From an uncultured Pelagibacteraceae bacterium (lineage in GTDB: Bacteria; Pseudomonadota; Alphaproteobacteria; Pelagibacterales; Pelagibacteraceae), in the NCBI GenBank assembly GCA_902619665.1, contig CACNFB010000005.1, positions 1-56,084 on the forward strand: a DNA stretch of 56,084 bases, given 5' to 3'. Of this stretch, positions 19,814 through 50,878 are shown piece by piece (positions within the stretch are counted from its first letter, which is position 1; every line of letters starts with the position of its first letter). The position numbers and the translations under genes are program-made. The notes beneath the pieces were generated by a model, which saw nothing but the letters and a program-made list of their open reading frames with translations, was not told the origin of the DNA and did no database searches.

Positions 19814-22684
19814 TTAAGCTGCGTCTTCTTTAAACTCATCCATACTTGGGCAAGTACAGAATATATTTTTATCTCCATATACGTTATCTACTCTAGCAAC
19901 TGGTGGCCAAAATTTATTGCTTTTCAAATATTTAGATGGGTAAGCTGCCTCTTCACGTGTGTATTTATGGCTCCATTCATCAGATGAAAGTTCTAAATCT
20001 GTGTGAGGTGCATTCTTTATAGGATTGTCTATTTTATCAAATTTACCCGATTTTATATTATCAATTTCAGATTTGATTTTAATAAGCGTATCACAGAATC
20101 TATTTATCTCTCTCAAATTTTCACTCTCAGTTGGTTCTATCATCATAGTGCCAGCGACAGGCCAGGACATAGTTGGTGCATGAAAACCATAATCAATTAA
20201 TCTTTTCGCAATATCTTCCTCTGTTATTCCTGTTTCTGATTTAATATTTCTAATATCAATAATGCATTCGTGTGCCACATTGCCATTTGACCCTTTATAC
20301 AAAATTGGAAAGTGATCTTTTAATCTATGAGCTATATAATTTGCATTCAATATCGCAACTTGAGTAGCAAGCTTTAATCCAGCTGATCCCATCATTTTAA
20401 TATACATCCAAGAAATTGATAAAATGCTTGAACTTCCCCAAGGCGCTGCAGAAACTGCCCCAATTCCAGATGTTGGTCCACAATCTTTTATTACTGGGTG
20501 GTTGGGCAAGTAAACTTGTAAATGTCTTTTACAAGCAATTGGTCCCATTCCAGGTCCTCCCCCACCATGAGGAATACAAAATGTTTTATGTAGGTTAATA
20601 TGACAAACGTCTGGACCAAAATTTCCTGGTTTAGCAATTCCCACTAATGCATTTAGATTTGCACCATCCATATAAACCTGACCACCATGTTTATGAACTA
20701 ACTCACAAATATCTGATATTTTTTCTTCAAATACTCCATGAGTGGATGGGTAAGTTACCATTAATGCCCCAAGGTTTTCAGAATGTTGTTCTGCTTTTTT
20801 CTTTAAGTCATCAAAATCAACATTTCCTTCTTTATCACAATTAACAACAACAACTTTCATTCCAGCCATTTGTGCACTTGCTGGATTAGTACCGTGTGCT
20901 GAACTTGGAATTAAACATATGTTTCGATTAGCCTCATCTCTATCTAAATGATACTTTCGGATAACCATTAATCCCGCATATTCACCTTGAGCACCTGCAT
21001 TAGGTTGAAGAGAAACACCTGAAAAACCAGTTATGGAACGCAACCAATTTTTTAGATCTGTAAATAGATCTCTGAATCCTTCCATTTGTTCAATTGGTAC
21101 AAATGGATGAGGTTCTGCAAACTCTTTCCATGAAATTGGTATCATCTCTGCTGCAGCATTTAACTTCATTGTACATGAACCAAGTGCAATCATTGTTCTA
21201 TTCAATGCTATATCCTTATCTTCTAATCTTTTTAAATATCTCAGCATTTCTGTTTCAGAATGATATGAGTTGAAAACTGGATGTTCTAAATATTTTGAAG
21301 TTCTCAATAAGTTTTTTGGAAGATTGGGTAAACTTACTGAAGGATCCTCTTTTTTGATTGATTCAGCTGCGTTAAAAATTTTTAATAGTTGATTTACTCT
21401 ATAAACATTTTTTCTTTCATCAAAAGAAACTGCAAGCATTTCAGAATTTACTTTACGTATATTAACTTTTTGATTTAAAGCATTTTTATAAATTTGATCA
21501 GTTTTTTCTTTAGTAATAATTGTAACAGTATCAAAAAAATGATTGGAATAAAGTTCGTATCCAGACTGTTTTATTTTGTCAGCAAAACTTTTTGCTAATT
21601 GTGACACTCTTTCAGAAATGTTCTTAATTCCATCTGGGCCGTGATAAATAGAATATGCTGCTGACACAATTGCTAATAGAGCTTGAGCAGTACAAATGTT
21701 ACTTGTCGCCTTGTCTCTTCTGATATGTTGCTCTCTAGTTTGTAAGGACAATCTATATGCCTTATTACCGTGTCTATCAACTGACACACCGACAATTCTT
21801 CCTGGCATTGATCTTTTGTACTCATCTTTTGTTGCAAAAAAAGCTGCATGTGGACCGCCATATCCCATTGGAATACCAAATCTTTGTGAGCTTCCAACTG
21901 CTATATCTGCACCAAGTTCTCTTGGTGTTTTTAATTTTGCTAATGCTAACAAATCACAAGCTAATACAGCCTTACCATTCTTTTTATGAATTTTGCTAAT
22001 TGCTTCACTTGGGTCTTTGATATCTCCTAAAGTTCCAGGATATTGTAAAATTCCACAAACTAAATCTTCTTTTAACTGGTCTAAAACGTCATCTTCTTTG
22101 CCAACTATTACTTTTAAACCCAACGGTTCAGCTCTAGTTTGAATTACATTTATTGTTTGAGGATGACAATCCTCAGATACAAAAACTAAATTACTATCTT
22201 TTTTGTTCAATCTGTGACTTAGGCCCATAGCCTCTGCTGCTGCTGTACCCTCGTCTAATAAAGAGGCATTAGCGATATCCATGCCTGTAAAGTCAACGAT
22301 CATTTGTTGAAAATTTAATAACATCTCAAGTCTTCCTTGAGCTACCTCTGGCTGATAAGGTGTATATGAAGTATACCAACCTGGATTTTCTAATATATTT
22401 CTTAAAATTACATAAGGTGTATACGTTCCATAATAACCCATACCAATAAAGTTTGAGTAAACTTGATTTTTTTTTGAAATTGCTCTTAATTTTCTTAACG
22501 CTTCATATTCTGAATTTGATACACCAATATTTAATTCACCTCTAAACTTTATTTTTTCTGGTACTGTGCTGTCAATTAAATCATCTAGTGATTGATAATT
22601 TAATTCTTTTAGCATTTTTGATTGATCTTCTTTAGAAGGTCCAATGTGTCTCTTTAAAAAATCTTTTTCTGAATTTGGTAACAT
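19814..22684 (-). CDS. gcvP: Glycine dehydrogenase (decarboxylating), P-protein
   Basis: This 956-residue single-chain P-protein decarboxylates glycine on pyridoxal phosphate and loads the aminomethyl group on the H-protein lipoyl arm. The PLP lysine is Lys700 in INLHKTFCIPHGGGGPG. The N-terminal half has FLKRHIGPS and the FIGMGYYGTYTP region, and the C-terminal half has ALGSCTMKLNAA. Fusion of both halves in one chain is the usual form in proteobacteria. The start codon overlaps the gcvH stop by one base. Confidence 0.97.
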   Translation of the reverse strand: MLPNSEKDFLKRHIGPSKEDQSKMLKELNYQSLDDLIDSTVPEKIKFRGELNIGVSNSEYEALRKLRAISKKNQVYSNFIGMGYYGTYTPYVILRNILENPGWYTSYTPYQPEVAQGRLEMLLNFQQMIVDFTGMDIANASLLDEGTAAAEAMGLSHRLNKKDSNLVFVSEDCHPQTINVIQTRAEPLGLKVIVGKEDDVLDQLKEDLVCGILQYPGTLGDIKDPSEAISKIHKKNGKAVLACDLLALAKLKTPRELGADIAVGSSQRFGIPMGYGGPHAAFFATKDEYKRSMPGRIVGVSVDRHGNKAYRLSLQTREQHIRRDKATSNICTAQALLAIVSAAYSIYHGPDGIKNISERVSQLAKSFADKIKQSGYELYSNHFFDTVTIITKEKTDQIYKNALNQKVNIRKVNSEMLAVSFDERKNVYRVNQLLKIFNAAESIKKEDPSVSLPNLPKNLLRTSKYLEHPVFNSYHSETEMLRYLKRLEDKDIALNRTMIALGSCTMKLNAAAEMIPISWKEFAEPHPFVPIEQMEGFRDLFTDLKNWLRSITGFSGVSLQPNAGAQGEYAGLMVIRKYHLDRDEANRNICLIPSSAHGTNPASAQMAGMKVVVVNCDKEGNVDFDDLKKKAEQHSENLGALMVTYPSTHGVFEEKISDICELVHKHGGQVYMDGANLNALVGIAKPGNFGPDVCHINLHKTFCIPHGGGGPGMGPIACKRHLQVYLPNHPVIKDCGPTSGIGAVSAAPWGSSSILSISWMYIKMMGSAGLKLATQVAILNANYIAHRLKDHFPILYKGSNGNVAHECIIDIRNIKSETGITEEDIAKRLIDYGFHAPTMSWPVAGTMMIEPTESENLREINRFCDTLIKIKSEIDNIKSGKFDKIDNPIKNAPHTDLELSSDEWSHKYTREEAAYPSKYLKSNKFWPPVARVDNVYGDKNIFCTCPSMDEFKEDAA

Positions 22685-23064
22685 TATGCTGATGTCTCCT
22701 TTGCAAATTTATCGTACTCTTCTTTATTCATAAGAGTATCAAATTCTGATTTATCTTTTAACTTTAATTTAAAAAACCACGCTCCACCCTCTGGGTCAGC
22801 ATTAATTTTTGACGGATCATCAACGATTGATTGATTAATTTCTACAATCTCGCCACTTACTGGAGTATATACATCGCTAGCGGCTTTTGTTGACTCTACC
22901 ACCCCTGCGGTTCGGTCTTTTTCAACATTAGATCCTTTCTCAGGTAATTCAGCAAAAACTATGTCACCTAACATTTCAGTTGCATGTTTTGTAATTCCAA
23001 TAGTTCCAACCTCCCCATCTAATGTAATCCATTCATGTTCTTTCGAAAATTTTGTATTAGACAT
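22684..23064 (-). CDS. gcvH: Glycine cleavage system H protein
   Basis: This is a 126-residue lipoyl carrier that shuttles the aminomethyl group between P and T proteins. The lipoylated residue is Lys60 in [27 protein letters not shown] at the start and the [13 protein letters not shown] strand near the end are typical. It overlaps gcvT by eight bases and gcvP by one, so the three make a single unit in the order T-H-P. Confidence 0.97.
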
Positions 23065-24160
23065 TAGCTTCTCCTTTCACATAACTTTTTTTATAAAACG
23101 GTAAATCACAAACATTGGCAGGTACTTTTTTCCCTCTTACTTCTAAGAAAACTTTTGTATCTGTTTTAGAATGAGAATTTGAAATATAACCCATCGCGAT
23201 AGATGCATTAACACTTGGTCCAAATGTGCCACTAGTAACTTTTCCAATCTCATTGTCTTTCTCGTCAAAAATTTTGGTTGACTCTCTTGCTATAACTCTA
23301 GTCTCTGGTTTGATGCCAACTCTTAATTTTGATACACCTTCTTCAATTTGTTTTTTTATTTTTTGTGACCCTGTAAAATTATCATTTATTCTGTTTTTTG
23401 AAATAGCCCACTTTAAATTTGCTTCAACTGGACTGGTATTCTCATTTATATCATGGCCGTACAAGCACAAACCTGCTTCTAATCTTAAAGTATCTCTTGC
23501 ACCTAAACCGATTAAAGTTGACCCTTGTGAAATTAATTCTTCTACAAAATAGATTGCAACTTTATTAGGTATTGATATTTCAAAACCATCTTCACCTGTA
23601 TATCCAGATCTTGTTATAAAGATTTCGTTATTTTCAAAAAAAAAGTTTCCTCCATTCATAAATTTTAATTTTGATACGTTTGAAACTACATTTTCAAGAA
23701 CTGTTTTAGACTCTGGACCTTGTATCGCTATAAGAGATAAGTCATTGTTCATATCCAAACTTTGATCATTCAATTTATTTTTAATAATCTGAAGATCGTT
23801 TTGTTTACAAGCAGCATTTAAAATAATCATGTACTGATCTTTCATCCTAGTGATGATAAGATCATCGTATATTCCCCCGTTCTCTTTCATTAAAAATGAA
23901 TACTTACTTTGATTAATTTTTAAATTTTTAAGATCAGTCGGTAAAATTTCTTGGAGCTTATCTGTTATGTCATCACTATATTTAATGAATAGCTGCCCCA
24001 TATGCGAAACATCAAAAATTCCGGACTTATTTCTTGTAATATTATGCTCTTTTACAATCCCCTCAGAGTATTGAATCGGCATACTATAGCCAGCGAACTC
24101 AACTAACTTTGCGCTATGCTTTTTGTGTAATTTGTACAGTGCTGTTTTTTTTATATTCAT
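23057..24160 (-). CDS. gcvT: Aminomethyltransferase, glycine cleavage T protein
   Basis: This enzyme transfers the methylene group from the H protein to tetrahydrofolate and releases ammonia. Motifs include [37 protein letters not shown] and [21 protein letters not shown] chose the ATG at 24160, which has an AAAGAG ribosome-binding site just upstream. A TTG at 24175 would add five residues and cover that site. The gene follows a tandem glycine riboswitch. Confidence 0.96.
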
Positions 24161-24176
24161 ATTAACTCTTTTCAAA

Positions 24177-24320
24177 CCCCCTCTGTCGGTGTGCCTGAGA
24201 GATTTTGGCTCCTTCGGCGAGAATTTATCTCTTTCCAGAGTTAATATGTACGGTCCTTTTGCCTGAGAGTTTCCGGGGTGGTTGCTCCTTCGGCGCTACA
24301 AATACGTAGTCTCTCCCGTA
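24177..24320 (-). promoter_or_regulatory. Tandem glycine riboswitch upstream of gcvT
   Basis: Read on the - strand, two aptamers follow each other. Each has the conserved core GCCGAAGGAGC (24284-24294, then 24208-24218) followed by CTCAGGC (24261-24267, then 24193-24199). The first core is followed by AAAAGGACCG and the second by a shorter ACACCGACAG. This is the known gcvT-type double aptamer that turns the glycine cleavage operon on when glycine is plentiful. The G-rich end of aptamer II lies only about 17 bases before the gcvT start. Control may therefore act on ribosome access rather than through a long terminator. I see no T-run terminator between them. Confidence 0.95.
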
Positions 24321-24331
24321 TATTTTTTTTT

Positions 24332-24422: not shown

Positions 24423-24917
24423 TTATTCATCCATGTAATTAAAGTTTATTACAACCCTCCTTAGCGAATCTGTGCAATCTACCCCACAATGTAGAGTTCT
24501 ACCATCAAATACTACTGCTCTATTTGCCTTGCTTTCAACTTTTTTACCGTTTTCAAACATAGTGGAGCCGTTATTAGTATTACAATAAAAAACTGCAGTC
24601 TTAAATTTTTCTTCGTCTTTCCTCGTAACATCTATATGCATTTCAGACTAAATATTTTCCTTTTTTTTAAATGTTTTATTAGCTTTAATTCTTATAACTT
24701 TTTTCATGTTTAGTTTGCTTATAAAAGGATCCAAAATAGTTACAAATTTAGACACAACCTTACCCGATAATATAAAATTATGGCAAAACTGAAAATTTCC
24801 GTCTCCAGACTTAACTTTATAAGTAAGAAAATACCACGGAAATTCTGGGCCCATTAATACATCATTTAATTTTTTAAACTCTTCCGGACTTAACAGATTA
24901 TCAACAACTTTTACCAT
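24423..24917 (-). pseudogene. 2OG-Fe(II) oxygenase (phage-type), interrupted by an in-frame TAG
   Basis: Two pieces lie in the same frame. Residues 1-89 (from ATG 24917) start with MVKVVDNLLSPEEFKKLNDVL and end KKKENI at TAG 24648-24650. After two more codons the frame continues with MHIDVTRKDEEKFKTAVFYC to the stop at 24423. The second piece holds the whole iron site: His and Asp in MHID, a distal His in LHCGVDC, and the 2OG-binding Arg in LRRVVINFNY. NTNNGSTMFENGKKVES is typical of small oxygenases in marine phages. So one amber codon, not a frameshift, splits the gene. An ATG eight bases past the stop could let ribosomes restart. It could also be a sequence error or a polymorphism. Confidence 0.75.
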
Positions 24918-24954: not shown

Positions 24955-25830
24955 TTAAACTACTTGTGAATTTTCTTTTTTTTTCATAAATAAGAATTGT
25001 AACAAAACTGCAAAAATAATTACACTTCCTCCTATAAGGACAGTCAACGGAGGATTTTCGTTAGCAAACATCCATGCCCACAAAGGACCTAATACAGCTT
25101 CGGTGATCATGATGATTCCTACTACTGCTGAAGGGGTATTTCTTGCACCTATTGTGATAAATATAAAACCAAAACCTAATTGAAAAAAACCTGCTAAAAA
25201 ACCTAAAAAAATATCGTGATATGAAATATTAATTTTGCCGGCTATTAGATAACCAACAATCATTGCAACGATGCCTGCTATCAACTGTAGTGGTATCATG
25301 TCTACATGTGGATACTTACGGATAATTAAAATTAAAATAGCAAAAGATATTGGCATTATAAAAGCAGCCAAGTTACCTGTCATCTGGCCAGGTGATAATG
25401 AAGAACCAATCATTAATATTACACCTACAATTGCTAAAAATATTGAAATCAAAGTTATCTTAGTAATTTTCTCTTTAAGAAAAATATAACCAAATATCGC
25501 TAAAAATAAAATTTGAGTTTGAATTATAAAATTTGTATTTGCAACGGTTGTGTTATACATAGCAAACACATATCCACAAAATCCAGACGATAAAACAATT
25601 CCACCAATTAAACCAGGTAAGCCTGATTTTTTAAAAGCATTTAAAACTTCTGTTTTGTAAGTTAAAAGTAAAAATATAGTTACAATCAATATAAAAAATA
25701 AGGATCTCCAAAATAAAATTTGCCAAAGTGTTGCACCTTCAAATGACTTTACAATAAGTCCCCCAAAACTAAGACTGCATGCACCTAAAAATACTAAAAA
25801 AGGACCTGGTATTTTATTTATAAAATTCAC
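24955..25830 (-). CDS. EamA/DMT-superfamily permease
   Basis: This 291-residue protein has ten membrane helices and EamA repeats. YNTTVANTNFIIQTQILFLAI closes the first half and GIIMITEAVLGPLWAWMFANE the second. It is the third paralog of this kind in the window and lies two bases after the guaA stop, at the end of a long - strand run of genes. The substrate is unknown. Confidence 0.87.
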   Translation of the reverse strand: MNFINKIPGPFLVFLGACSLSFGGLIVKSFEGATLWQILFWRSLFFILIVTIFLLLTYKTEVLNAFKKSGLPGLIGGIVLSSGFCGYVFAMYNTTVANTNFIIQTQILFLAIFGYIFLKEKITKITLISIFLAIVGVILMIGSSLSPGQMTGNLAAFIMPISFAILILIIRKYPHVDMIPLQLIAGIVAMIVGYLIAGKINISYHDIFLGFLAGFFQLGFGFIFITIGARNTPSAVVGIIMITEAVLGPLWAWMFANENPPLTVLIGGSVIIFAVLLQFLFMKKKENSQVV

Positions 25831-31977: not shown

Positions 31978-33192
31978 ATGAGCAAAATTAAGGTCAAAAA
32001 CCCAGTAGTAGAGTTGGATGGCGATGAAATGACAAGGGTTATATGGGAATTTATCAAGAAGAAATTGATCCTTCCATATCTGGACCTTGGAATTGAATAT
32101 TACGATCTTGGGATGAAGAGCAGAGATGATACCTCAGACCAAATTACAATTGATTGTGCTAATGCGATTAAAAAAAATGGGGTTGGGATTAAATGCGCAA
32201 CAATCACTCCAGATGAAGCTCGAGTAAAAGAATTCAACTTAAAAAAAATGTGGAGATCTCCCAATGGAACAATAAGAAATATCATTGGAGGGACTGTATT
32301 CAGAGAACCGATAATTTGTAAAAATGTTCCTAGATTAGTTCCATCATGGACAGATCCGGTTATTATAGGAAGACATGCTTTTGGTGATCAGTACAGAGCA
32401 ACAGATTTCAAGGTTCCTGGTAAAGGAAAATTAGAGGTAAAATGGACATCAGAAGATGGAAAAGATAATAAAAGTTATGAGGTGTTTAATTTTCCTGGAC
32501 CTGGAGTTGCGCTTTCAATGTATAATTTAGATAAATCAATCGAAGACTTTGCAAGATCATGTTTTAATTATGGGTTAATAAAAAAATGGCCTGTTTATTT
32601 ATCTACAAAGAATACTATTTTAAAAACTTACGATGGAAGATTTAAAGATATATTCCATGCAGTATTTGAAAAAGAATTCAAGTCTGATTTTGATAAACAT
32701 AATTTAACTTATGAACATAGACTTATTGATGATATGGTAGCGTGTGCAATGAAGTGGAGTGGTAAGTATATATGGGCATGTAAAAATTATGATGGGGATG
32801 TTCAATCAGATACTGTGGCACAAGGCTATGGTTCATTAGGATTGATGACAAGTGTGTTGTTGGCCCCAGATGGAAGAACAATGGAGGCAGAAGCGGCACA
32901 CGGGACTGTGACGAGACATTACAGAATGCACCAACAAGGAAAAGAAACTTCAACCAATCCTATTGCTTCAATATTTGCTTGGACAAGGGGTCTCGCTCAT
33001 AGAGGAAAATTAGACTCAAATGATGAGTTAATTAAATTTTCTAAAACTTTAGAAGATGTATGCATTAATTGTGTTGAAACCGGTTCAATGACAAAAGATC
33101 TAGCAATCTTAATTGATAAAAATCAAAAGTATTTAAGCACAAATCAATTTTTAGATGCTATTGATGGAAATCTTAAAAAGAAATTAAACTAA
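31978..33192 (+). CDS. icd: NADP-dependent isocitrate dehydrogenase (eukaryote-type)
   Basis: This TCA-cycle enzyme converts isocitrate to 2-oxoglutarate. The 404-residue sequence is of the homodimeric type seen in alphaproteobacteria and mitochondria rather than the E. coli type. It begins [18 protein letters not shown] and continues with [27 protein letters not shown] and [14 protein letters not shown]. The late cofactor segment is [12 protein letters not shown]. It stands alone on the + strand and its stop overlaps the convergent pilY1 stop by four bases. Confidence 0.96.
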
Positions 33193-36100
33193 AAACTACT
33201 ATCTCTCCAGCCACCTTTATTTTGCATAATTTCACCAGGGATTGATAATATTGAGAATAATGTATCTGCATCCCCTGTTGGACCAGCAACGTTTGCAAAT
33301 AGTTTATCAGCAAATATTACCAACTCAGATAAAATACCTTTTCTTACAAATGCGCATGCATTTGCTCCTGGATTATTAACGTCAGCTGGTGCTGAAGGTA
33401 ATTTTAATTTTGCCGAATTATTATAACCACACTCATCATCCGATACACAAATAAATGCAGATCCTTGAGCACATCTATCTACACCGCTGTCTGGTGGTTG
33501 GTAAATAGGAAAATATACTTGGCCTTTGAATAAAGTTGGTGACGCAGATGCTTTTCTAAATGTTTTAGGCAAATAAAAATTATTACTTTCATCCTGACCT
33601 AATTTAATTACCCAAGCCTGCTTACCTTCAATACATTTTGAAAAATCAGTTGCACCAGTTACATTTTTACAATGAGCAGCATTGTCAATACCGGGTGCAG
33701 CATTAGCACCTTGGTGAGCTAATTGGAAAAATGTTGTATTATCACCTCTTGGAACTTTACCACCTCCACCAAGATTTAAATGTTTAAAATACGGATAATC
33801 AGGGTCAGTTATTCCATACATAATATTATCCATATTTGGTTCTCTACCACCAAGATCTGTGAAATTTCCTGTGGCTCCAAATAACATTAATTGATTTGTA
33901 TTCACTCCTATTCCTGCATCCATTGCAAAATATGAGTAACGTGCATTATCTGTATTCGCATCTAATCTAAACAATGTTGTTTGATCGAAAAGTGCTGCAG
34001 AATTTCTTGTGGAATTTGTTAAATTTATCTTAGTAATTTTACCCTCTAAATCGTTTATATATACAAGGGCTCCTCTCCATGGAATACCAAAAGCAGTGTC
34101 AGGAGTAATAACAACTGGAGCTGCGGGGATTGCATTAACTATATCACTTCCGTTTTCAGTAGCAGTCTTAGTACCTCCGACCATTATACCATCTGGTGTT
34201 GTGTCAACAATTGTAATTGGACCTCCATTTTCTTCAGCAGCATAAATTCTTCCAGGTTTATCTCTTTCATCTAAATGTAGATCTACTAAAAATATAGCAG
34301 AGCCTGCACAAGTATCATTTTTACTCATTCCTCCGCCCATAATTGCAACATATCTGTCCTCATTAATACCACCCCCATCTACTGAAGGTATTCTGACTAT
34401 TCTTGGTGTAGACCATGTCTCACCTAATTGTGAATAATCATATTCAGTTGGAAGACCTGTTGCACCTTTGCAAGATGTAGAAATACTAAACTGATTTGTC
34501 TCTTTGTCTGCTCCTGCTACGTGTGCAATTCTATTAGCATTAATGGTTAATTTTCGATCAAATTTTACTTTTAATAGACCACCCGACATTCTTGCATCTG
34601 CAATACCTAGAGGTGTCATCAAGCCTGTTACGTTGTCTCTTTGTTGTGCGCTTAAAACACCGTCATCAATTTTTGTATTATCATCAACATCTAATGTGAT
34701 ATTAGCAAAATGAAAGGTGTCACTCGTGTAACAAGAGCTTGTACCTTCATCTCTATATGCTGGATCAGCAGCAGTTAAATCATCACTATCTACACATGCT
34801 GCAATTGCATCTTGTTCTACACAATCAACTACAGCATCATCAAGACTATTGCATACTTCATTACCATCTGCATCTTTATCTGCATCTCTTGCCGTCTGAT
34901 AATTTGCATATGCTTTAATACCTTCTTCCGATTGAAGAAAAGATGAAAAGCCTGAATTATAAGGTTCTTCTGTTATATTTCCCTCGTAATCAGCTATTAG
35001 AATTTTTTTATTTATTTGATCGTTAAAAATAGAAAACATATGAATAGGGCCGCTACTATCTTCAATAATTGGATTAGTAATATCAAGAACAGAGAAGCCT
35101 GCACCACCTCTTCCATAAGGGACAAACAATATTGTTCGCCACTGTTTGCCTGTCTCATTACCTAGTGCATCGTAGCCTTCAATTAATGCATCATGAACAA
35201 CTGGAGAACCATCAACACCAAATACTGGGTTTGTACCACCAGCGGGAGCTGTAATTGCAATTGGTTTTCCATCAGCATCCAACTTTGGATTTCCATCAGC
35301 ATCTAACACATAAGATATTACAGCATCAATATTACCATCATATCCTTTATTAATAACTTGAGGTAGTAATGCTGCAATAAAAGGTGGAATGAAACCCCAT
35401 TCTTCTTCTCCAGTCTCTGCATTAATTGCATGGAGTACTCCACTGTTAGAGCCAGCGTAAATTATATTCCTTCTTTGTGAATGTTTTGACATGAAGCCCT
35501 GATAATTATTTGTACTTCTATGATAGGCCTCTTCATTTCTATTTGAAAAATCTAAACTTGCATCTGGAGGACCTACTTCAATTAATTGAGAGTGATAAAT
35601 ATCACCCATTACATGTTTTCTTAACTCTTCAATGTCGCAATCTCCATCATAATCAAAATAATCATTACCTTTCATAAATTTTATTAATCCTTCAATGTCA
35701 TCAGCATTGCCATTTGGGCCAACATGTTTTTTGCCTGTATCTCTTGTTGCACAATAGGATGATGAATTATGGTAATCAGGAACGGTATATCCAAGCATAT
35801 CAAATAAATCTGTTGCTATAATGCTGGAATTTCCAACATTAAAATTATCCCAATTTCCAAAATATGATGCCCCTGGTATCGCTGACCACAAGTGTCTCTC
35901 ATCTTTTGCATCACCTGCTCTAGATTGGCCTCTAACTTTTACTGCAGCACTCCAATTTCCGTGTGCGTTAGGCTCAGTGGTTTCGTGTTCTACTGTTCCA
36001 TCTGAATTAAGTTTTTTTCTTAAAATTGTACCTTTCCATTCTCCAAACTGTTCGTAAGCAAATTGTGCTTGATACAGTGAACCACCCTCTTGAATGGTTG

Positions 36101-38069
36101 CTGTAATAGATGGGGCGGTAAATGCAAGTTTGTCTGCAATAATTTGTCTAATTTTACTCGTTAGTTCAGATTTTAACTCTTCAGGAGTATTTGCAATTAT
36201 TACTTCCTCACAGTCTTTGTCCCCAAGCGTTTCACAGGAACCTGCTCTTGCAAATGTTTTAAACATACTCATGGATTTACCTCTTATTCCTCCACCGTAA
36301 GCAACATATAAAGATTTAATACCTTTCTTTCTTAATTCCTCCATTCGGCCTATAGATTTACCTTTACTAGCATGGCCAATATTAACTCCATCAACTGCCT
36401 TACCAATACCAGTATTTGTCATTGCACCATCTCCAATTACAATCACGTAATTTAATTGGCATAAAGAATCCTCATCAAACACTAAACCTCCTGCTTTAGG
36501 ATCGTTGAAGTATTTAGTAGCTATGTCCGAGAATGCTTGCGAGTCTGTTCCCCAAGCAAGACCCATAGGTTCTAAAACTCTCATGATTTGACTAGCTCCT
36601 TTAGAGCTTATTCCAACGTTTAAGCAAGAGTCTGTATTACACAAAACACTTGTTCCTGCAGGGTGTTCGCCCTTCCAGCCATCATAATAGGTACACTTAT
36701 CATTTCTATGACAATAAGCTCCACCATTTTTAGAGTTTTTGCCTAAACCGCTCCTACCTGCGTTCCAGTGACCAAATCCAAAATGTGCACCAGTTGTCAG
36801 AGTTGTATCGTTTACAATAGCATTAATTGCATCTTTTACTCCGTCCCATCTTCTTACTCTTGGACCTCCCATTTGTTGAAGCCACGATGTATCTCTGTTA
36901 GCAACAGTGAAATTAGTTTCATTAAATTCGTCTACATATCCTCTAGTGGTTGCTGTTAGTATTCTATTTCTTTCTGCATCTACATGTATTCCCCAAACTC
37001 TTGAAAATCGAACATCATCTGCTGCTGTATCTCCAGAGGTCCCTTTATTTGATATAACTGAATTTACTCCAGAACCAATACTTGCACGTACAACGCAATC
37101 AGTATCTGAAGTAAACTCTAATTTTTGTATTGCATGATTAATGTGCGAGCCAATATAAAGAATATTGCTATCATCAGGAGAAACGGCAATAGTCGTTGCA
37201 TGCATGACATCATTACTTAAATCTGGATTGTTAACTTTTGTACAGGTTCTATTTGGCATAGTTATTGAAGCTAAAGGAGTTGGGCTTGCTAAATCCAAAT
37301 TAAATCCCCTAACATTTCCATCTCTATAATCTGTCATATAAACCATAGTACCTTCATTATTAACTGATAATCTTCCCATAGTTCTTAAAGTATTTCTCCC
37401 CCTAAATTCTTGATTGGTACATGCCATCGTCGAAAGGTTGCAAACTTTAAAAAAGCCACCTCTTCTCCAAGGACCACCCAAAAACATATAATATGTGCCC
37501 CCAATTTCTTTAATATCAAGATCATGAATTCTGGCTCGTTGTGACTGAGCACGTAAAGCGAATAAACATTCTGTTCCATCCTCAGTAAAACCAAAGACCA
37601 TATCTCTGTCGTGTCTTTCTAGGGCATTAAAGAAAAACATATTTTTATTTGAAATATTTTTACCTGAAAATCCTTCTACAAAACGTAATCCTCTATTTCT
37701 TCTTACATTTCTTCTTACTGTGGACCTGGTAGTGTCATAAACATTAGCGCATCCAGCTGCAGGAGTTACTCGAATTGGTGTAAAGTCAGTATCTCTTTTA
37801 CCAGCTGAAGTATATCTAACTATACCAACAGCTCTTCTGCCACTTTGATTAATTAATATGTTTCCATTTGAGTCATAAACTGCTTTTGGAGCTGCGCCTA
37901 ACCCATCAGAACCAATCCATGATTGCATACTCGCAGAACTATCAACCAAAAATAAAATATTTGCTGCAACATCACCATCTCCTGCTCCTGGTGGCACAGG
38001 TTTTGAATAAGTAATATTATTATTGTTGATTAATAAAAAAATTATCGGTATTAATTTTAAATATTTCAT
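33189..38069 (-). CDS. pilY1: PilY1-like pilus tip adhesin with VWA domain and beta-propeller
   Basis: This 1626-residue exported protein belongs to the type IV pilus tip. I chose the ATG at 38069, which gives a clean signal peptide (1-22). An ATG at 38087 is also possible. The VWA metal site DSSAS lies at residues 43-47. The rest of the VWA fold resumes only near residue 405 ([14 protein letters not shown], later [10 protein letters not shown]) and runs to about 645. Residues of about 105-400 look like beta-propeller repeats ([15 protein letters not shown]). The C-terminal PilY1 propeller starts near 870 ([20 protein letters not shown]), with a Ca-binding-type loop [13 protein letters not shown] at 923-935. 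PilY1 controls pilus extension and adhesion. There are many Cys residues, which suits a periplasmic or surface protein. Confidence 0.9.
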
Positions 38070-38073
38070 TAGT

Positions 38074-38661
38074 TTATCCAGTTGCATTCATCACCCTTTC
38101 ACCTACGGTAAAATCCAACATCTCGGGGCTTGTTATTTCTAAATATTCAATTGTTTCGTTTGCAATTTTCGTTTTACCATAAAAGATGAGTAATTCTCCT
38201 ATGCTTAAATTTTTATAGCCTGTCCAATTATTACTCTTAGTTTCACTTCCTGGGTCTGATATAAAATTTTTTACAAATTCATAAATTTCATTTTGACTAT
38301 TATTGTGTGAGTTTACTAAATTTATCCCTGCAATTTTAGAGTTATAAACTATAACTTCTAAATCTGCATTCTCAAGTGATGAGCCCTCACAATAATCTTG
38401 GGCATAATCTTGATATTTTGCTGAAAATTCATCTCCATAAATATCTGTACTATATGCATCTATAAATTCAAATGTAGAAACCGCGCTACTAACATTTGAT
38501 CCAATTGGGACATTTAGAAGCTGACACGCAAAGGACTTGTTAAAGATAAATAATAATAAAATAATATAAAAATATATTTTTTTCACAGATATAAATTTAA
38601 ATAATTGAGAAAATTTTTCAACACAGTTAATAAATAATTTATGTCCAATTTGACCAAGCAT
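38074..38661 (-). CDS. Secreted protein of unknown function in the pilus operon
   Basis: It lies between pilX and pilY1 with no spacer on one side and four bases on the other, so it is co-transcribed. The ATG at 38661 gives an unusually long n-region. A GTG at 38586 would give a textbook signal peptide (KKIYFYIILLLFIFNKSFA) and a 170-residue protein, and I think that start is more likely. The mature part is acidic and begins CQLLNVPIGSNVSSAVSTFEF. I do not recognise a family. Its place suggests a pilus tip or assembly accessory. Confidence 0.65.
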   Translation of the reverse strand: MLGQIGHKLFINCVEKFSQLFKFISVKKIYFYIILLLFIFNKSFACQLLNVPIGSNVSSAVSTFEFIDAYSTDIYGDEFSAKYQDYAQDYCEGSSLENADLEVIVYNSKIAGINLVNSHNNSQNEIYEFVKNFISDPGSETKSNNWTGYKNLSIGELLIFYGKTKIANETIEYLEITSPEMLDFTVGERVMNATG

Positions 38662-39315
38662 TTAGTGAGATAATATAGCTATGGTCTCTAACGGGACTAA
38701 AATTTCTGGTTTTGAAACACTTCCCATTATACCGCAGGCATAGATTCTGTAAGCGGTTCCTTGTCTTTGAACACTTGAAGAAGTTTTCTTTAAGCTGCCT
38801 CCAACAGATTTATAATCAGCAGAACCTGCGTTCACAGAAAAGTATTCATATTTAAATTTTTTCATTCTATTAATTTCACCTGTTACCTGTTTGCTGCTAC
38901 CGAAATTAGAAGTTTCGTCTAATATAGGAGAAATAATATCATAAAAACTTACATCTTGAATGTGCTCAACGACCTTAAAATCTTTTCTACTTATATTTCT
39001 AAAACTTTTGTAACAAGGGGTTCCGTCATCTAATTTAGAGATTGCTTGTTCTACATTTGTTGGTATATGCCTTTTATCCTCATCTCTTGTACCGTCGTCT
39101 TTTACATTTCCCATCATACTATTTATTAAGGATTTTTGAGCTTCTAATAATGCATGTTCTGCAACATAAAAAGTTTGTTGAAAGTCGTCACTGCTATTAT
39201 TGCTTTGATGGTCTGATGATGAAATAACTATTAAACCACCTCCCATTAGTGACATTGCAAGAAGTAAAACTAAAGACATCACTAATGTAAAACCTTTTTC
39301 ATTTTTTTTTATCAT
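38662..39315 (-). CDS. pilX: PilX-like minor pilin
   Basis: The prepilin leader KKNEKG is followed by the hydrophobic helix FTLVMSLVLLLAMSLMGGGL. The residue at mature position 5 is Met, not Glu, as in the PilX/GspK group that caps the pilus tip. A helical stalk with YVAEHALLEAQKSL follows. The 217-residue length fits. It starts on the last base of pilW. Priming minor pilins and PilY1 together form the pilus tip complex. Confidence 0.85.
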   Translation of the reverse strand: MIKKNEKGFTLVMSLVLLLAMSLMGGGLIVISSSDHQSNNSSDDFQQTFYVAEHALLEAQKSLINSMMGNVKDDGTRDEDKRHIPTNVEQAISKLDDGTPCYKSFRNISRKDFKVVEHIQDVSFYDIISPILDETSNFGSSKQVTGEINRMKKFKYEYFSVNAGSADYKSVGGSLKKTSSSVQRQGTAYRIYACGIMGSVSKPEILVPLETIAILSH

Positions 39316-40334
39316 TAGAATAAAGTTCCTCCAATGTTTCTTGTATTAACTGTTACAATTACTGAATCTCTTAATAGTCTGTCTTCAGCCTCAATCTTTC
39401 GATCATCTAATCCAACTACTTCTCTTTTTTGTGTCTCTTTATAAAAGTTGTCTTTAGATCTAAAAGTTAACCTGACATCTACACCTGCAATATCAAATAA
39501 TCTGTCTCTCAAATTATCAATCTCAGGAGCAGGGTAATTCCCTGCACTATCTCTGATTATAAGTCCATCTCTATCAAATGGAATAAATTCCATATCTTCA
39601 ATATGATCCCTCACAAGATCTTTCTCTATACATTGTGGACAATCAGTTACCCATTGACCACCTGTTGCAGGAAAAATACAAATTTCTTCATCTTCGCCAA
39701 TTTTAGCGACGTCTGAAGCAACTCTTTCTTGCCTCCATGACTCAACTGTTTTGTAGACAGCTAATCTAACTATATTTTTTTCACCTATCTTTTCATCAGC
39801 ATAATATGTAATCCTATACCTTTTAAATGGTTGGTCTAAATCGTTTTGATTAAAATCTTCATAAACAATCTCTATTTGGTCACAACACTTATTTGTTGAA
39901 TTTGCATTCGATTTAATTGAATCACTATCATCGCCTGATGTTTGGAAACCAAGTCTATTTTTTCTTATTACAATAGGGTTATGACTTAATTTATGATCAT
40001 TAAATCCATTATCAAAAGTCAGATAACTTTTATTAGGAAGAACGAGACCAGGGTCACAACTTCTCTTTTTAAATGTATCTTCGGCAAACTTGGCTATTGT
40101 TTGAGATCCAGCGTAATATTTAAATCCAGCCATTCGAATATCTCTCATCAGCATTGAAACTAAATCTCTACTAGATCTACTAATTTTTGCTTTTTCACTA
40201 ACTTGTGAATAAGTGTTATTTACAACATTATACGTGGTATATAATGCACCCATCATTAATGTTGTGATTAAAATACCAATTAAAATTTCAACAAGTGTTA
40301 AACCTTTTTGATTTCTAAAATACTCTTTATTCAT
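39315..40334 (-). CDS. pilW: PilW-like minor pilin
   Basis: Prepilin peptidase motif NQKG followed by LTLVEILIGILITTLMMGAL, with Glu at mature position 5. The characteristic PilW stretch SRSSRDLVSMLMRDIRMAGF comes next. The 339-residue length and a C-terminal ending SVIVTVNTRNIGG also match. It is a large minor pilin of the tip-priming complex. Paired Cys residues (CPQCIEKD) occur in the globular domain. The spacing to pilV is four bases. Confidence 0.88.
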   Translation of the reverse strand: MNKEYFRNQKGLTLVEILIGILITTLMMGALYTTYNVVNNTYSQVSEKAKISRSSRDLVSMLMRDIRMAGFKYYAGSQTIAKFAEDTFKKRSCDPGLVLPNKSYLTFDNGFNDHKLSHNPIVIRKNRLGFQTSGDDSDSIKSNANSTNKCCDQIEIVYEDFNQNDLDQPFKRYRITYYADEKIGEKNIVRLAVYKTVESWRQERVASDVAKIGEDEEICIFPATGGQWVTDCPQCIEKDLVRDHIEDMEFIPFDRDGLIIRDSAGNYPAPEIDNLRDRLFDIAGVDVRLTFRSKDNFYKETQKREVVGLDDRKIEAEDRLLRDSVIVTVNTRNIGGTLF

Positions 40335-40338
40335 TTGT

Positions 40339-40932
40339 TTAATTTACTCCTTGTAACTTATAATCCGACTGAAAATATAAATACTTTCTTTTTTTTCCGT
40401 CATTTAAATTTATTTGAACTCGGCCAATATACATTTCTAAATCCTGCATGTTTGGATTATTATTAGTGCAACCCGATCTGCATATTTTGTAAACTTGAAA
40501 TTTTCTAGTTTCATTTGTTCCTCTACATCTTAAATATGACTTGCTATCTAAAATTGCTTCCCATTTACTTTTTTTTCTTGCATGTGCATCAGTTCCTGTA
40601 GTGTTATAAATTTTTCCTGCGTTAGCAGATCCAGTACCATCTTTTACTTTACATGCCTCAGACTCGAATATTGGTTTGCCGTCATCTGCGCCAAGTAAAT
40701 ATTCTGTAAAATTAGAGTCAGAAGAAGTTGCGGTATCTCTTGCGCTTATAACGTCCTCAGCAATTATATTAGTCAAAAAGTTTGCTTTAGTTCTTTCGCC
40801 TGAGGAATGCATTGATTGAACTGAGTAATTAGTCATCTGTAAAATTGCAACAAATCCAATTCCAATAATTGCAGTAGATACCAAAGCTTCTAATAAAGAA
40901 AGACCTAATATATTTTTGTTTCTAAAAATCAT
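40339..40932 (-). CDS. pilV: PilV-like minor pilin
   Basis: The leader ends in NKNILG, followed by LSLLEALVSTAIIGIGFVAIL with Glu at position 5 and then MTNYSVQSMHSSGERTKAN. This matches PilV, the minor pilin found between FimU/PilW homologs. The 197-residue globular domain has several Cys (CKVKDG, CRGTNE, CRSGC). It begins directly after the fimU-like stop. Confidence 0.85.
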   Translation of the reverse strand: MIFRNKNILGLSLLEALVSTAIIGIGFVAILQMTNYSVQSMHSSGERTKANFLTNIIAEDVISARDTATSSDSNFTEYLLGADDGKPIFESEACKVKDGTGSANAGKIYNTTGTDAHARKKSKWEAILDSKSYLRCRGTNETRKFQVYKICRSGCTNNNPNMQDLEMYIGRVQINLNDGKKRKYLYFQSDYKLQGVN

Positions 40933-41757
40933 TTATTCAATCCAACCACTGCCACTCCATTTAGTTATAGCAAAGTTTCCAAACCTAGACCATTTAATAG
41001 CATTTAAGTATTCTGCGGTATTTCCATCATCATCTGTACCAGGGGGTAATTCTTTATCTAAATCACTATCACTATACCCAACATTACAGTCCTCACCTTC
41101 ATTAACTCTTCTGCAAATATATATAAAATCAAATGGCTTATTTGAGTTGCTTAATAAGCCCCCATTGGCCTCATAAAATTTTCCATTCCTTGAAAAGCAA
41201 ACTGCTCCAACATCCCCTTCTGCGCCTGCTCCATCATCACCACCTAGCATATCTACTGGCACTGCGTCTCCCTCCTCGCCACCTACAGCATCAGCTTGTT
41301 CCTCGGTCACTTTCATTGATGCTGTGATATCACTAAAATTTGTTTTACTAACAAAATTTTTAATTTCACCCGCATCTGCAGCATCTGTATCCCAATAATC
41401 TTCATCTAAGGAACATCTACTTGTAACGTTATCAGGGAATTCTTGGTTCCAAGGATCATCTCCATTGTTTATTTTTGATGCGAGTGTATCCATAGTCATC
41501 CCTTTAGTTTCAACCTGTAAATATTTGTCAGTATTAGTAAATTTTACTTGTACATAAGCAAATGTTCCTTGTTGTGTTTGTATTTGAATATTTTTTACTA
41601 TGGATAATATTTTATTAACTGCACTCCTAACCTTTCTTTCTTTATTCCATGAAGAAAAATTTGGATATGCTACAGCTGAAACAATTCCAACAATAGTTAA
41701 GACGACTATTAATTCAAGAATGGTGAAAGCTTTAGTGTTCTTTTCCAGCACCCGCAT
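40933..41757 (-). CDS. GspH/FimU-like pseudopilin
   Basis: The prepilin helix FTILELIVVLTIVGIVSAVAYPNFSSW with Glu at position 5 and the following KERKVRSAVNKILSIV match the GspH/FimT/FimU group. Unusually the residue before the cleavage point is Ala (NTKA|FTILE) instead of the near-invariant Gly. An acidic stretch (EEQADAVGGEEGDAVPVDML) lies mid-domain. The start overlaps the end of pilT by 26 bases. It would be part of the tip-priming minor pilin set. Confidence 0.8.
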   Translation of the reverse strand: MRVLEKNTKAFTILELIVVLTIVGIVSAVAYPNFSSWNKERKVRSAVNKILSIVKNIQIQTQQGTFAYVQVKFTNTDKYLQVETKGMTMDTLASKINNGDDPWNQEFPDNVTSRCSLDEDYWDTDAADAGEIKNFVSKTNFSDITASMKVTEEQADAVGGEEGDAVPVDMLGGDDGAGAEGDVGAVCFSRNGKFYEANGGLLSNSNKPFDFIYICRRVNEGEDCNVGYSDSDLDKELPPGTDDDGNTAEYLNAIKWSRFGNFAITKWSGSGWIE

Positions 41758-42745
41758 CTATTTTCCCTGCTTTGACTAATTCTTCTAAAGACTTAGTCAT
41801 GGTAATCATACCATCTTTTACTGCAGTCTGCATGATGCTTGGGATTTGATGAATTTTTGCTTCTCTTATTAAGTTTTGAATTGGAGCTGTACACTTCATC
41901 ACCTCAAAAGCACCACAACGTCCTTGACCGTCTTTGGTTTTTAAAAGTCTTTGTGTAACAACCATCTTTAATGATGTTGAAATCTGTGCTCTTATTTGAG
42001 CTTGTTGTTCCGGCGGGAAGACATCAATAATTCTATTTATTGTATTTGGTGCACCACTTGTGTGTAATGTTCCAAATACCAGGTGGCCTGTCTCTGCAGC
42101 TGTTAAGGCAAGTCCAACAGTTTCTAAATCTCTCATCTCTCCAACTAAAATTACATCTGGATCTTCTCGTAGAGCAGCTTTTAACGCACTTGCAAAAGTT
42201 TGTGTTTGTTTTCCAACTTCTCTATGAGAGACAATACTTTTTATATCTTTATGGATAAATTCAACAGGATCTTCAACTGTAATAATATTTGCAGTTCTAG
42301 TTTTATTTATTTCATTTACAATTGCAGCAAGCGTTGTAGATTTTCCTGATCCAGTAGGACCAGTTACTAAAACTAAACCTTTGTGCATATCAATTATATC
42401 ATAAAGAGCTGGCGGTAAATCAAATTGACCCATTTCTGGAATAACGCTCTCTACTCTTCTTAATACCGCTGCTGGACCGTTAATTGTTTTATAAAAATTA
42501 GCTCTAAATCTTAATCCGCTTAATGTAACAGACGAGTCTAACTCATGAGTATCATTAAACTTTTTCATTTCAACTTCATTACAATTAGTTGAAATAAGAT
42601 CTTGTAGATCTTGTGCCTTAACTATTACATCTTGAACTTTATGAATTTCACCTGTTTGCCTATAAGCTAAAGGCCAACCACTTCTAATATGAAAATCTGA
42701 AATTTTTTTATTATTTTTTGCAAGTTCTTCTAATTTTTCAAACAT
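41732..42745 (-). CDS. pilT: Type IV pilus retraction ATPase PilT
   Basis: This 337-residue hexameric ATPase depolymerises the pilus. It has Walker A GPTGSGKSTTLAAI, the Asp box ITVEDPVEFIH, Walker B DPDVILVGEMRDLET, the His box GHLVFGTLHTSGA, and SLKMVVTQRLL. No zinc-binding tetracysteine is present, as expected for PilT. The signature N-terminus (SDFHIRSGWPLAYRQTGEI) is present. No pilU homolog is in this window. Here pilT is transcribed with a sensor phosphatase and the minor pilins, not with pilB/pilC. Confidence 0.95.
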   Translation of the reverse strand: MFEKLEELAKNNKKISDFHIRSGWPLAYRQTGEIHKVQDVIVKAQDLQDLISTNCNEVEMKKFNDTHELDSSVTLSGLRFRANFYKTINGPAAVLRRVESVIPEMGQFDLPPALYDIIDMHKGLVLVTGPTGSGKSTTLAAIVNEINKTRTANIITVEDPVEFIHKDIKSIVSHREVGKQTQTFASALKAALREDPDVILVGEMRDLETVGLALTAAETGHLVFGTLHTSGAPNTINRIIDVFPPEQQAQIRAQISTSLKMVVTQRLLKTKDGQGRCGAFEVMKCTAPIQNLIREAKIHQIPSIMQTAVKDGMITMTKSLEELVKAGKIDAGAGKEH

Positions 42746-42768
42746 TTTAATAATATTATCTCAATTCC

Positions 42769-45171
42769 TCAAAATTTTCCAGACACTTCTAGGTTGGTAA
42801 AATACTCAGAACTGTTCTCTAAGCTTTGATTTGAGTTAATTTTAAAGTCTAAACCATGAATATTTTTTGAATAGCTCAAATTGGTTTGGTGAGCATTGAT
42901 TGGATCATAATTTAATGCAAATTGATCATCCTCTTCTTTTGAACGACTAAACTTTATTATAAAAGTATCCGTACTAAATCCAGGAGCTTCACTAGTATCA
43001 TTTAATCTTATTATTCTCTGATACTCAGTTGATACTGTAAAACCATTTAAGTGAATTGCTTCAAAACCAATTGAGGTCTTTAGATTTTGCCTTGAAAATG
43101 GTGAATGTATAGTTTCTTTATTGACATGAGTTCCACCCTGATAAACATATTTATAATCAACGTCATTAGTTAAATCATATAATATCTCTATTCCACCCAT
43201 TGGCTGAACTGTTCCTTGATCAGTTTCAATGATATCAGTTTCAAATAAAAATCCAGCTGCCAGTTCCCCGCTGGTAAATGTGTCCTCTTTATATATCACG
43301 TCTCTAGCTGGTAGCCCTGAGGCTTTAGCTAAGAAATCTGTAAATTCTGATAATCTTGTTACGCCATATGTAAGTTTACCTGTTGGGGTTACATTAAGAA
43401 TTCCATATTTTTCTTTAGTTCTATAATTTATTGTTGCAAAAGCTTGTTTTCCTTTTCTCTCACCTGATAGATTACCCATATATCTATGATCGTACCATAA
43501 ATGACTTAAGCCTACTACAGCATTTATGTATTGATTATCTTTAGAGGGTAAAATTCCATATAGGTTTAAAGTTAAAGACTCCATAGTTACATCTTGTTTT
43601 GAAAATTTGATGTCGGAACTACTATCACCGTATCTAAGTGCTAGTCCAAAAAATTTGTTGTCTCCAAATTTTCTATCTGTTCCTAAGGTTAAACCTCTGG
43701 TATTTAGATCTTTTGCTTTTACTGAACCGTCTATTTCAAAAATACTCAAAGATATATCTGCTAAGCTCCAGCTAGACCACTTTGATTTTTTATTTTCTGT
43801 TTTATGTTTGCTAATAAAAGATGCAACATTATTTCTTACCGATGGTTCAAATTTATTAGCTAAAGTTTTCAATAAAGGATCTTCGTAATTTATTTTAAAG
43901 TTATGAGCAGATAAATTTTCATCATCACGATTTCTTTTTATCCATTCAAATCTTTTAAAAATAGTATTAACATTTAAACTTATATTTTGTTTAGCAAGTT
44001 CAAATTGAGCTTCAATTGACGAAGACGTGTCTGAAGAACACTTAGCTATTCCATAAGGACATTGAAGATTATATTGAAAAATCTGATCTACTGCAGGTCC
44101 TGTAAATCTTTGTGATGTAAAAAGTTTCATTCCATCGCTAGAAAAAGTGAAACCTCCCATCCATCCATTATTGTTTTCACGACCAACAAATGGTGTTGCG
44201 ACGGAACCTATATGGCTTGCTGTTGATACATCATAATTTTTACCTAAACTAAATTGGTGAATTCTCTCTAATACATCTCCTTCTTGATTAAATACTGATA
44301 TAAACATCTCGCTTCCATCATCATTAAATTCTACATCTGTAGCACTTGAATTTTCTCCATCCACTAAATCAATTCCTATCGTTGACAAATCTACGATATG
44401 TATTTGGGTAGGAGTAATGGAAGTATTAAAAGGTGATGATAATGAAAATGTTGTAAGTTCCATAGTATTATGTTCAGCATTTAAAGCAAACAATCTTGTC
44501 CCGTCCTTGCTAAAAGAAAAAGAGTTAATTTCACTGTTTAAAGCAAATTCATTTTCATAAGTAGCTGTCCTAAAATCGAAAGATTTACTTAAATTGTATT
44601 TATGTAATTCACCTGTCTCACTTAAAATAAAAAAAATTGTACCATTAAGTGCAGCATGGATGCTTACATATTCAGTTGTATCAGCACTCATGCCTTGTGC
44701 CAGAAAATCTGGATGATCAACATCAAAACCATCAATATCATCACAAGTGTGTATTCCAAGTGTAGTTTTTACAGTTTTTAATTCAAACGGATCTCTAACT
44801 TTATTCATAGACAAATCAAGGTCACCCATGTAGCCATTCTTAGTTCTATTCATATTATCATTTATTGTAAAAACCATTGTACCGTCATCGCTCCATAAAA
44901 CATCTCGTATGTCTTCTGTTCTATCGTGCTTAAGTTCTGTAGCGTAGGTTTGTACTGATGTTGTATTAAGAATTTGCTCTAATTTAGAACTAAAACAACC
45001 AGTTGCTCCCGCAGGAATTCTATTATCTACATGTGTGATAGTTAAAGCGGCCGCTAGAGCTAGTGAAGAAAAAAAAGCTGCAAATAAGATAAAAAAAATA
45101 TTAGTACTTAAAACACCTGATTTTAAAGACCTAAAAATTTTTTTGATATTTAATTTTTTAATAATTTTCAT
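42769..45171 (-). CDS. Autotransporter-like outer-membrane protein with beta-propeller-like passenger
   Basis: An N-terminal hydrophobic export segment (residues about 22-43) precedes a passenger of repeated strands (about 60-390). Each repeat resembles DVLWSDDGTMVFTIND, SFSKDGTRLFALN or FNDDGSEMFISVFN, as in seven-bladed propellers. From about residue 470 to 800 the sequence alternates polar and non-polar residues and carries autotransporter-barrel signs (TLGTDRKFGDNKFFGLALRYG). It ends in LEVSGKF, with the terminal Phe that the BAM complex recognises. The gene sits between the phosphatase and pilT with gaps of 11 and 23 bases. It is probably an anchored surface protein. Confidence 0.75.
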   Translation of the reverse strand: MKIIKKLNIKKIFRSLKSGVLSTNIFFILFAAFFSSLALAAALTITHVDNRIPAGATGCFSSKLEQILNTTSVQTYATELKHDRTEDIRDVLWSDDGTMVFTINDNMNRTKNGYMGDLDLSMNKVRDPFELKTVKTTLGIHTCDDIDGFDVDHPDFLAQGMSADTTEYVSIHAALNGTIFFILSETGELHKYNLSKSFDFRTATYENEFALNSEINSFSFSKDGTRLFALNAEHNTMELTTFSLSSPFNTSITPTQIHIVDLSTIGIDLVDGENSSATDVEFNDDGSEMFISVFNQEGDVLERIHQFSLGKNYDVSTASHIGSVATPFVGRENNNGWMGGFTFSSDGMKLFTSQRFTGPAVDQIFQYNLQCPYGIAKCSSDTSSSIEAQFELAKQNISLNVNTIFKRFEWIKRNRDDENLSAHNFKINYEDPLLKTLANKFEPSVRNNVASFISKHKTENKKSKWSSWSLADISLSIFEIDGSVKAKDLNTRGLTLGTDRKFGDNKFFGLALRYGDSSSDIKFSKQDVTMESLTLNLYGILPSKDNQYINAVVGLSHLWYDHRYMGNLSGERKGKQAFATINYRTKEKYGILNVTPTGKLTYGVTRLSEFTDFLAKASGLPARDVIYKEDTFTSGELAAGFLFETDIIETDQGTVQPMGGIEILYDLTNDVDYKYVYQGGTHVNKETIHSPFSRQNLKTSIGFEAIHLNGFTVSTEYQRIIRLNDTSEAPGFSTDTFIIKFSRSKEEDDQFALNYDPINAHQTNLSYSKNIHGLDFKINSNQSLENSSEYFTNLEVSGKF

Positions 45172-45182
45172 GATGTTAAGAT

Positions 45183-47237: not shown

Positions 47238-47294
47238 ATTAATGAGTGTATATCTTAATTATGTAATGTAAATCTTTATGAGATTATAAGCTAA

Positions 47295-48551: not shown

Positions 48552-48663
48552 TTATTAAAAAAATAACATTTTTTTAGAAAAAATAAACCGTTATTAACTC
48601 AGTTTGATCAGAAAAAATATCTATATTTTTTAGGGTTTTTCACCTTATTGACGAATTTTGACC

Positions 48664-49971: not shown

Positions 49972-50083
49972 AAACCAGCAGAATAGATAAATTGTTTGAA
50001 ATATCAATTTTTAAAAAGCTATTAAAGACAAGGTAAATTAGAGACTATTATTAAATTTTGGCTTAAAAATTTTTAAAATTTTA

Positions 50084-50374
50084 TTATCTATAAATACTCA
50101 TTGGATCAAAGAAACAATTGTCTCTTTCTTGAGTCTCAAAGAATATTTTAGATAAATCTGAGCTATGATATGTTGGACAAATCTTTTCAACATTTTCTTC
50201 CTCAGAAATATTTTTTCTCGCAAGACTTAAGGTATAAGATTTTCCATAAGAAGTTGTTGCTTGGAGAACACTACCAGTTTCAACTAGAGTAAGGCTTGGT
50301 CCTATCATTGATGTGTATTGCCCGCATCCACTTAATGACAAACAAAAAGCTAAATACAAAATATACTTTTTCAT
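50084..50374 (-). CDS. Small lipoprotein, function unknown
   Basis: This 96-residue protein has a clear lipoprotein signal, KKYILYLAFCLSLSGCGQY, with the lipid-bearing Cys at about residue 17. The mature part is polar, with a second Cys pair (EKICPTY and RDNCFFD) that could form a disulfide. It ends in FDPMSIYR. I do not recognise a family. It lies between the minor pilin-like gene (50-base gap) and the TPR-barrel gene (112-base gap), so it may serve pilus assembly or surface export. Confidence 0.65.
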   Translation of the reverse strand: MKKYILYLAFCLSLSGCGQYTSMIGPSLTLVETGSVLQATTSYGKSYTLSLARKNISEEENVEKICPTYHSSDLSKIFFETQERDNCFFDPMSIYR

Positions 50375-50424
50375 GAGAATTGATTAAATCAACTTAGATT
50401 TAAAATCAATAGGTTATATTGTTA

Positions 50425-50856: not shown

Positions 50857-50878
50857 GTTAGTTATATTTAATTTACAA

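Follow-up and report, generated by a model that had tools for sequence, protein, structure and literature searches.

A single in-frame amber codon that probably silences a chromosomal 2OG-Fe(II) oxygenase in one Pelagibacter-type genome

LpxO, a membrane protein, is a lipid A 2-hydroxylase, and KdoO is likewise an oxygenase tied to lipid A. The SAR11 oxygenase described here resembles these enzymes solely in being tied to lipid A through the gene position of its distant copies. It differs from LpxO in that no LpxO-type model appears among the Pfam matches of the SAR11 oxygenases, and, whereas LpxO is membrane-bound, no hydrophobic stretch of membrane-span strength was found in it. Enzymes of the prolyl hydroxylase fold (PHD2/EGLN1, P4H) have the HxD...H...R residues in common with the SAR11 family, and prolyl hydroxylases show about 15% sequence identity to the SAR11 oxygenase. 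In sequence, the oxygenase belongs with PHROG_274, a family of cyanophage and pelagiphage genes whose profile match spans positions 8-179 of 192 in the window oxygenase. Unlike the phage genes, the window copy lies on a bacterial chromosome at a fixed site, is broken, and groups with SAR11 copies in trees. Phage PHROG_274 members are annotated as 'DNA endonuclease V' or denV, and in the study by Sullivan and co-workers denV is listed separately from 2OG-FeII oxygenases (PMC3037559). For uncultured pelagiphages, another study describes eight non-orthologous 2OG-Fe(II) genes, often close to ferrochelatase genes, and judges viral 2OG-Fe(II) proteins unsuitable for origin tracing (PMC9599517).

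The window, by which we mean the whole analysed stretch of 56,084 nucleotides (contig CACNFB010000005.1, assembly GCA_902619665.1), comes from an uncultured Pelagibacteraceae bacterium of Pelagibacter type (SAR11), whose genome assembly amounts to 979 kb, is split into 28 contigs and is 87% complete. Its oxygenase locus comprises two open reading frames, 24917-24648 and 24641-24423, which share one minus-strand frame and have a TAG as their sole separator. Since this frame, with the stop read as X, aligns end to end with orthologues, the pair is not a chance arrangement and is, judged by alignment, a single split gene. In the following list residues carry full-length numbering, and the iron and 2-oxoglutarate roles given for H94, D96, H143 and R154 are those of the corresponding residues in the superfamily.

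24423..24917, minus strand: whole oxygenase frame (PHROG_274 / 2OG-Fe(II) superfamily), 164 codons plus stop, with one interruption
24648..24917, minus strand: N-terminal piece, 89 aa, with no catalytic residue
24648..24650, minus strand: in-frame TAG, codon 90, private to the window genome among the homologues examined
24423..24641, minus strand: C-terminal ORF, 72 aa, whose first residue is the Met of MHID and which carries all catalytic residues
24630..24638, minus strand: presumed iron-binding HxD motif H94-I-D96, H94 and D96 invariant in 24/24 homologues
24489..24491, minus strand: presumed distal iron-binding His, H143, invariant in 24/24 homologues
24456..24458, minus strand: presumed 2-oxoglutarate-binding Arg, R154, invariant in 24/24 homologues
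24955..25830, minus strand: EamA-family transporter, upstream neighbour, 37 bases from the oxygenase
24241..24328, minus strand: glycine riboswitch aptamer RF00504, after the oxygenase and before gcvT
23057..24160, minus strand: gcvT, downstream neighbour, start set by the match to the relative G277

The start of gcvT is a TTG at 24175 in the ORF listing, as against 24160 by the G277 match. By eye, 24180-24240 resembles a further aptamer, such as would make the glycine riboswitch a tandem one; at gathering score, Rfam gave a single match. The preliminary description of this DNA had recognized an oxygenase split by a single in-frame amber codon, family conservation in both halves and the position of the TAG ahead of the MHID motif, and all three points hold: H94 and D96 lie downstream of codon 90, as do H143 and R154. 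Its statement that an ATG follows eight bases past the stop needs correction, as six bases intervene and the ATG is at 24641. Elsewhere in the window, just one gene of the region 33189-51388 finds a match in the close relative G277. The region encodes a 1632-aa protein without a Pfam family, a protein whose N-terminus bears a pilin-type motif, a type II/IV secretion ATPase, an autotransporter and a CHASE2-SpoIIE protein; two STAS-domain genes come after it.

The two pieces match consecutive stretches of the PHROG_274 profile (length 192), the N-terminal piece at positions 8-101 (E 9e-18) and the C-terminal piece at 107-179 (E 5e-25). The Pfam family 2OG-FeII_Oxy_3 (PF13640) is matched in the window by the C-terminal piece only, at 25.3 bits against a curated cut-off of 27; intact SAR11 copies stay below the cut-off too (L024, 24.1 bits; L074, 24.2 bits), and one phage PHROG_274 member passes it with 30.8 bits. 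DUF6445 (PF20043, cut-off 24) is passed by the window piece (27.1) and by L024 (26.3), with L074 (20.5) and L075 (20.9) remaining under it. NCBIfam returned no family for the two oxygenase copies submitted, and a sequence search of solved structures gave two weak antibody-fragment matches. The HxD...H triad and the Arg are present in the window frame past the stop and are invariant in all 24 intact homologues aligned (10 near orthologues, eight lpx-site copies, five other SAR11 copies and one viral contig); as a reading frame, the window gene is interrupted by the TAG at codon 90.

The structural model of the intact orthologue L022 (pLDDT 93.2, pTM 0.90) has the double-stranded beta-helix fold, and the PDB entries that match it best come from prolyl hydroxylases and further 2OG oxygenases, among them PHD2/EGLN1 (6yvx, VIA Z 15.1, rmsd 3.0, 154 residues) and the Pseudomonas putida P4H (PDB 4j25, 4j25_H, Z 14.1, rmsd 3.3, 149 residues). 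In this model residue 90 falls between core strands 71-83 and 106-111, and the core strands come from both sides of codon 90. The C-terminal piece would be without strands 3-6, 43-50 and 71-83 and the N-terminal piece without any catalytic residue; going by the model, neither piece is likely to be an enzyme alone.

A scan of genome contigs yielded 10 near orthologues with 80-96% amino acid identity, hosted by nine uncultured Pelagibacteraceae assemblies and Ca. Pelagibacter ubique SCGC AAA795-F16. All 10 are intact and occupy the same site, flanked by the EamA transporter gene and gcvT. The window frame aligns with them over its entire length, and they themselves align with 14 more distant homologues. 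Comparison with orthologues, which the preliminary description had proposed, thus found every near and distant homologue intact: the TAG occurs in 0 of the 24 and is, among the copies compared, unique to the window, at a position that is variable (four residue types among the 24). A survey of 399 genus genomes, drawn evenly out of a larger group, found 19 matches in 18 genomes, 18 of them stop-free and the window copy being the exception; three genomes of this set, G277, G276 and G345, coincide with assemblies that host near orthologues among the 10. For the gcv site, ten other genomes were searched with the transporter as query, nine of which gave a clear copy. In six of these nine, gcvT comes next, with aligned ends 181-214 bases apart, as against about 790-800 bases in the window and L022, where the oxygenase is present; in one the gap is longer and holds no oxygenase, and two have no gcvT inside the flank. 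The neighbouring gcvT itself (window 22684-24175 for the stretch concerned) comes in two diverged allele types in the 10 near relatives, with 70.7-72.2% identity to the window's gcvT in four and 93.2-95.9% in six. The gcvH gene tracks the gcvT allele type where covered, and the adjacent gcvP is 97.9-99.4% identical where covered; this split in gcvT sequence suggests allele replacement by recombination beside the riboswitch.

We consider it probable (about 0.6) that the TAG is a real, very recent nonsense allele switching off a chromosomal oxygenase in the cell line from which the window derives. The stop is present in the window sequence and absent from the relatives examined, the catalytic residues are downstream of it, and the frame is otherwise intact. 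On this view one Pelagibacter lineage carries the gene on its chromosome as an accessory 2OG-Fe(II) oxygenase, retained intact under purifying selection in relatives, and a single very recent nonsense substitution would have inactivated it here. Translation would stop after 89 residues and never reach the residues that bind iron and 2-oxoglutarate, so an active enzyme is not expected. We infer three things: the stop is a real change, its product is non-functional, and the intact enzyme is a hydroxylase whose substrate perhaps belongs to the lipid A pathway.

The age of the lesion can be judged from its surroundings. The 38 window genes with a match in G277 contain a single internal stop in 12,335 codons, namely the oxygenase TAG, the other 37 genes being stop-free; no frameshift was flagged in these 38 genes within the matched stretches, ends excluded. 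Compared with all seven close relatives, the private changes of the window branch in the oxygenase are one nonsynonymous, two synonymous and one nonsense. Eight neighbour genes together have 51 nonsynonymous and 127 synonymous private changes (four to seven relatives per gene, after removal, gene by gene, of relatives no more than 85% identical to the window copy and of loci spanning less than 85% of it); Fisher's test against the oxygenase gives p = 1.0 at low power. The oxygenase dN/dS is 0.059 against the nearest relative L022 and 0.03-0.20 among relatives. At the power of this comparison (1:2 against 51:127), relaxed selection was not detected, nor was any lesion beyond the one, and the lesion is therefore either very young or an error; purifying selection acted on the oxygenase until very recently, or is ongoing with the stop as error. 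The idea of a fresh pseudogene, one of the options raised in the preliminary description, fits best among them, with an assembly or amplification error remaining its live rival.

That rival, a base error in amplification, sequencing or assembly that made the stop while the living cell's gene is intact, is a real if minority possibility. An error predicts the absence of relaxed selection just as a young loss does, and the Fisher test, resting on three non-stop private changes, has little power. A single substitution in one genome, with no accompanying decay, in a partial assembly of 28 contigs, is what an error would look like. However, the rarity of internal stops and the lack of flagged frameshifts make the assembly look clean locally, and changes of the oxidation type are not significantly enriched (5/101 in the window against 13/501 in six relatives, p = 0.20), which leaves no significant excess of a DNA damage signature in this comparison.

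Reinitiation at the ATG past the stop, with the two pieces assembling into an active oxygenase, was also offered in the preliminary description, and we regard it as very improbable. An in-frame ATG does lie close behind the stop, the catalytic residues are all in the C-terminal piece, and sequence conservation is kept in both halves. Yet the proposed restart codon encodes Met93 of the MHxD motif, which is present in 18 of the 24 stop-free homologues and is thus a residue of intact proteins and not a novel start, which speaks against reinitiation by design. Conserved halves are expected anyway if the stop is young, and the predicted core draws strands from both pieces.

It is very unlikely that the window organism reads through the amber codon in a programmed way or has recoded TAG, even if an inserted residue might do no harm at so variable a codon, because RF1 was found in the genome above the curated cut-off, TAG is a normal terminator (31 TAA, 3 TGA and 3 TAG among the 37 matched window genes with a readable end), the internal stop is single and absent from every homologue examined, no CUA anticodon was found among the 22 tRNAs of the 87% complete genome, and the RNA past the TAG folds no better than shuffles (z -0.20). 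A suppressor tRNA could lie in the missing part of that genome, and low-level natural readthrough at the tolerant codon 90 could give some enzyme.

More informative than the stop is the location of the distant homologues. In eight of 13 distant SAR11 loci fetched, the oxygenase gene lies between lpxA and lpxI (genomes G016, G033, G242, G314, G393, G013, G252 and G077); these cases were picked for holding the gene, and the only valid frequency is eight of the 399 genomes searched.

L074-L081, e.g. L075:5135-5623: lpx-site oxygenase loci

The gene order in G033 is bamA-like, ompH-like, fabZ, lpxD, lpxA, oxygenase, lpxI, lpxB, with gltX next on the opposite strand. In each of the eight loci, the ORF ends give an overlap of 1 or 4 bases between the oxygenase and lpxI, an arrangement shown by translationally coupled genes. 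The oxygenase is absent from nine other lpx operons, among them those of the window genome, G277, G276 and G345, in which about 10 bases separate lpxA from lpxI; in G034, the tenth genome searched for the operon, lpxA was not found. The lpx position is thus held by eight distant homologues, and the window copy and its 10 near orthologues lie elsewhere; conversely, in G016 and G033, which have the oxygenase at lpx, the gcv site is empty. As a reading of gene order, the lpx-operon position suggests, without proving it, a role in lipid A chemistry. A literature search limited to open-licence papers found no oxygenase in a SAR11 lpx operon in titles and abstract openings. A second, more distant SAR11 oxygenase group (L083:5077-5607, L084:4998-5528 and L086:5020-5589) shows the same order of ORF lengths in its three loci, and its L083 member is flanked by an M24 peptidase and an ABC transporter ATPase.

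The suggestion that the window gene is a phage-derived remnant is right about the family and fails for this copy. The family is indeed common in marine phages: a tblastn search of phage sequences matched 261 records, all below 60% identity, a second search with an lpx-site copy as query matched 267 records from largely the same groups, and IMG/VR gave one relative at 40%. The window copy itself sits at a site shared by 10/10 near orthologues, has a low dN/dS, and has its nearest off-site kin in the SAR11 lpx copies; synteny, purifying selection and tree placement together argue against a phage remnant. Across the class, PHROG_274 matched 82 of 385 genomes, a tally not used as a count of true members, as 3/14 controls also matched and, beside the window match at E 4.2e-50, the others have E 1.7e-9 or weaker, many of them partial. 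In a tree with four phage rows, the gcv-site and lpx copies fall together, apart from phage, with support of 100/99; with eleven phage rows the same grouping has 89/86 and is not starred. Phage branches are long and many forks open, leaving the deep order unsure. Topology tests do not reject one origin for the gcv-site copies (p-AU 0.241) and are borderline for a single, separate lpx clade (p-AU 0.050). The favoured history, though not a proven one, is that in the window lineage the gene left the lpx operon and came to lie at the gcv site.

The phage name of the family deserves a comment of its own. When five phage members were compared with Pfam, four matched 2OG-FeII_Oxy_3, one of them above the cut-off (and also matching DUF6445), and one matched nothing; none of the five matched an endonuclease family at E 0.1. 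A T4 DenV-type endonuclease V is thus a poor identity for them, the SAR11 relative having an oxygenase fold. Phage loci named denV, such as L113:1495-1977 and L117:1474-1989, look like 2OG-Fe(II) oxygenases, mostly below the Pfam cut-off. 'DNA endonuclease V' looks like an old annotation that spread, and so a misnomer.

Taken further, and only tentatively, since we hold it to be unlikely as a whole, the SAR11 members of PHROG_274 may be soluble hydroxylases of a lipid A intermediate, acting for example on a sugar or an acyl chain at the stage between LpxA and LpxI. In one lineage the gene would have left the lpx operon for the glycine riboswitch locus, and losing it would switch cell surface chemistry, as the amber allele would; the copies in marine phages would possibly carry out the same chemistry. 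For the window itself, the TAG allele is an ordinary single lesion and should not be cited as a case of readthrough or of a two-piece enzyme. The broader point is that a large marine phage family, seemingly misnamed, has chromosomal kin inside the SAR11 lipid A operon. This link is a positional hint of the substrate pathway of the PHROG_274 family, and it is the lead worth pursuing over the stop.
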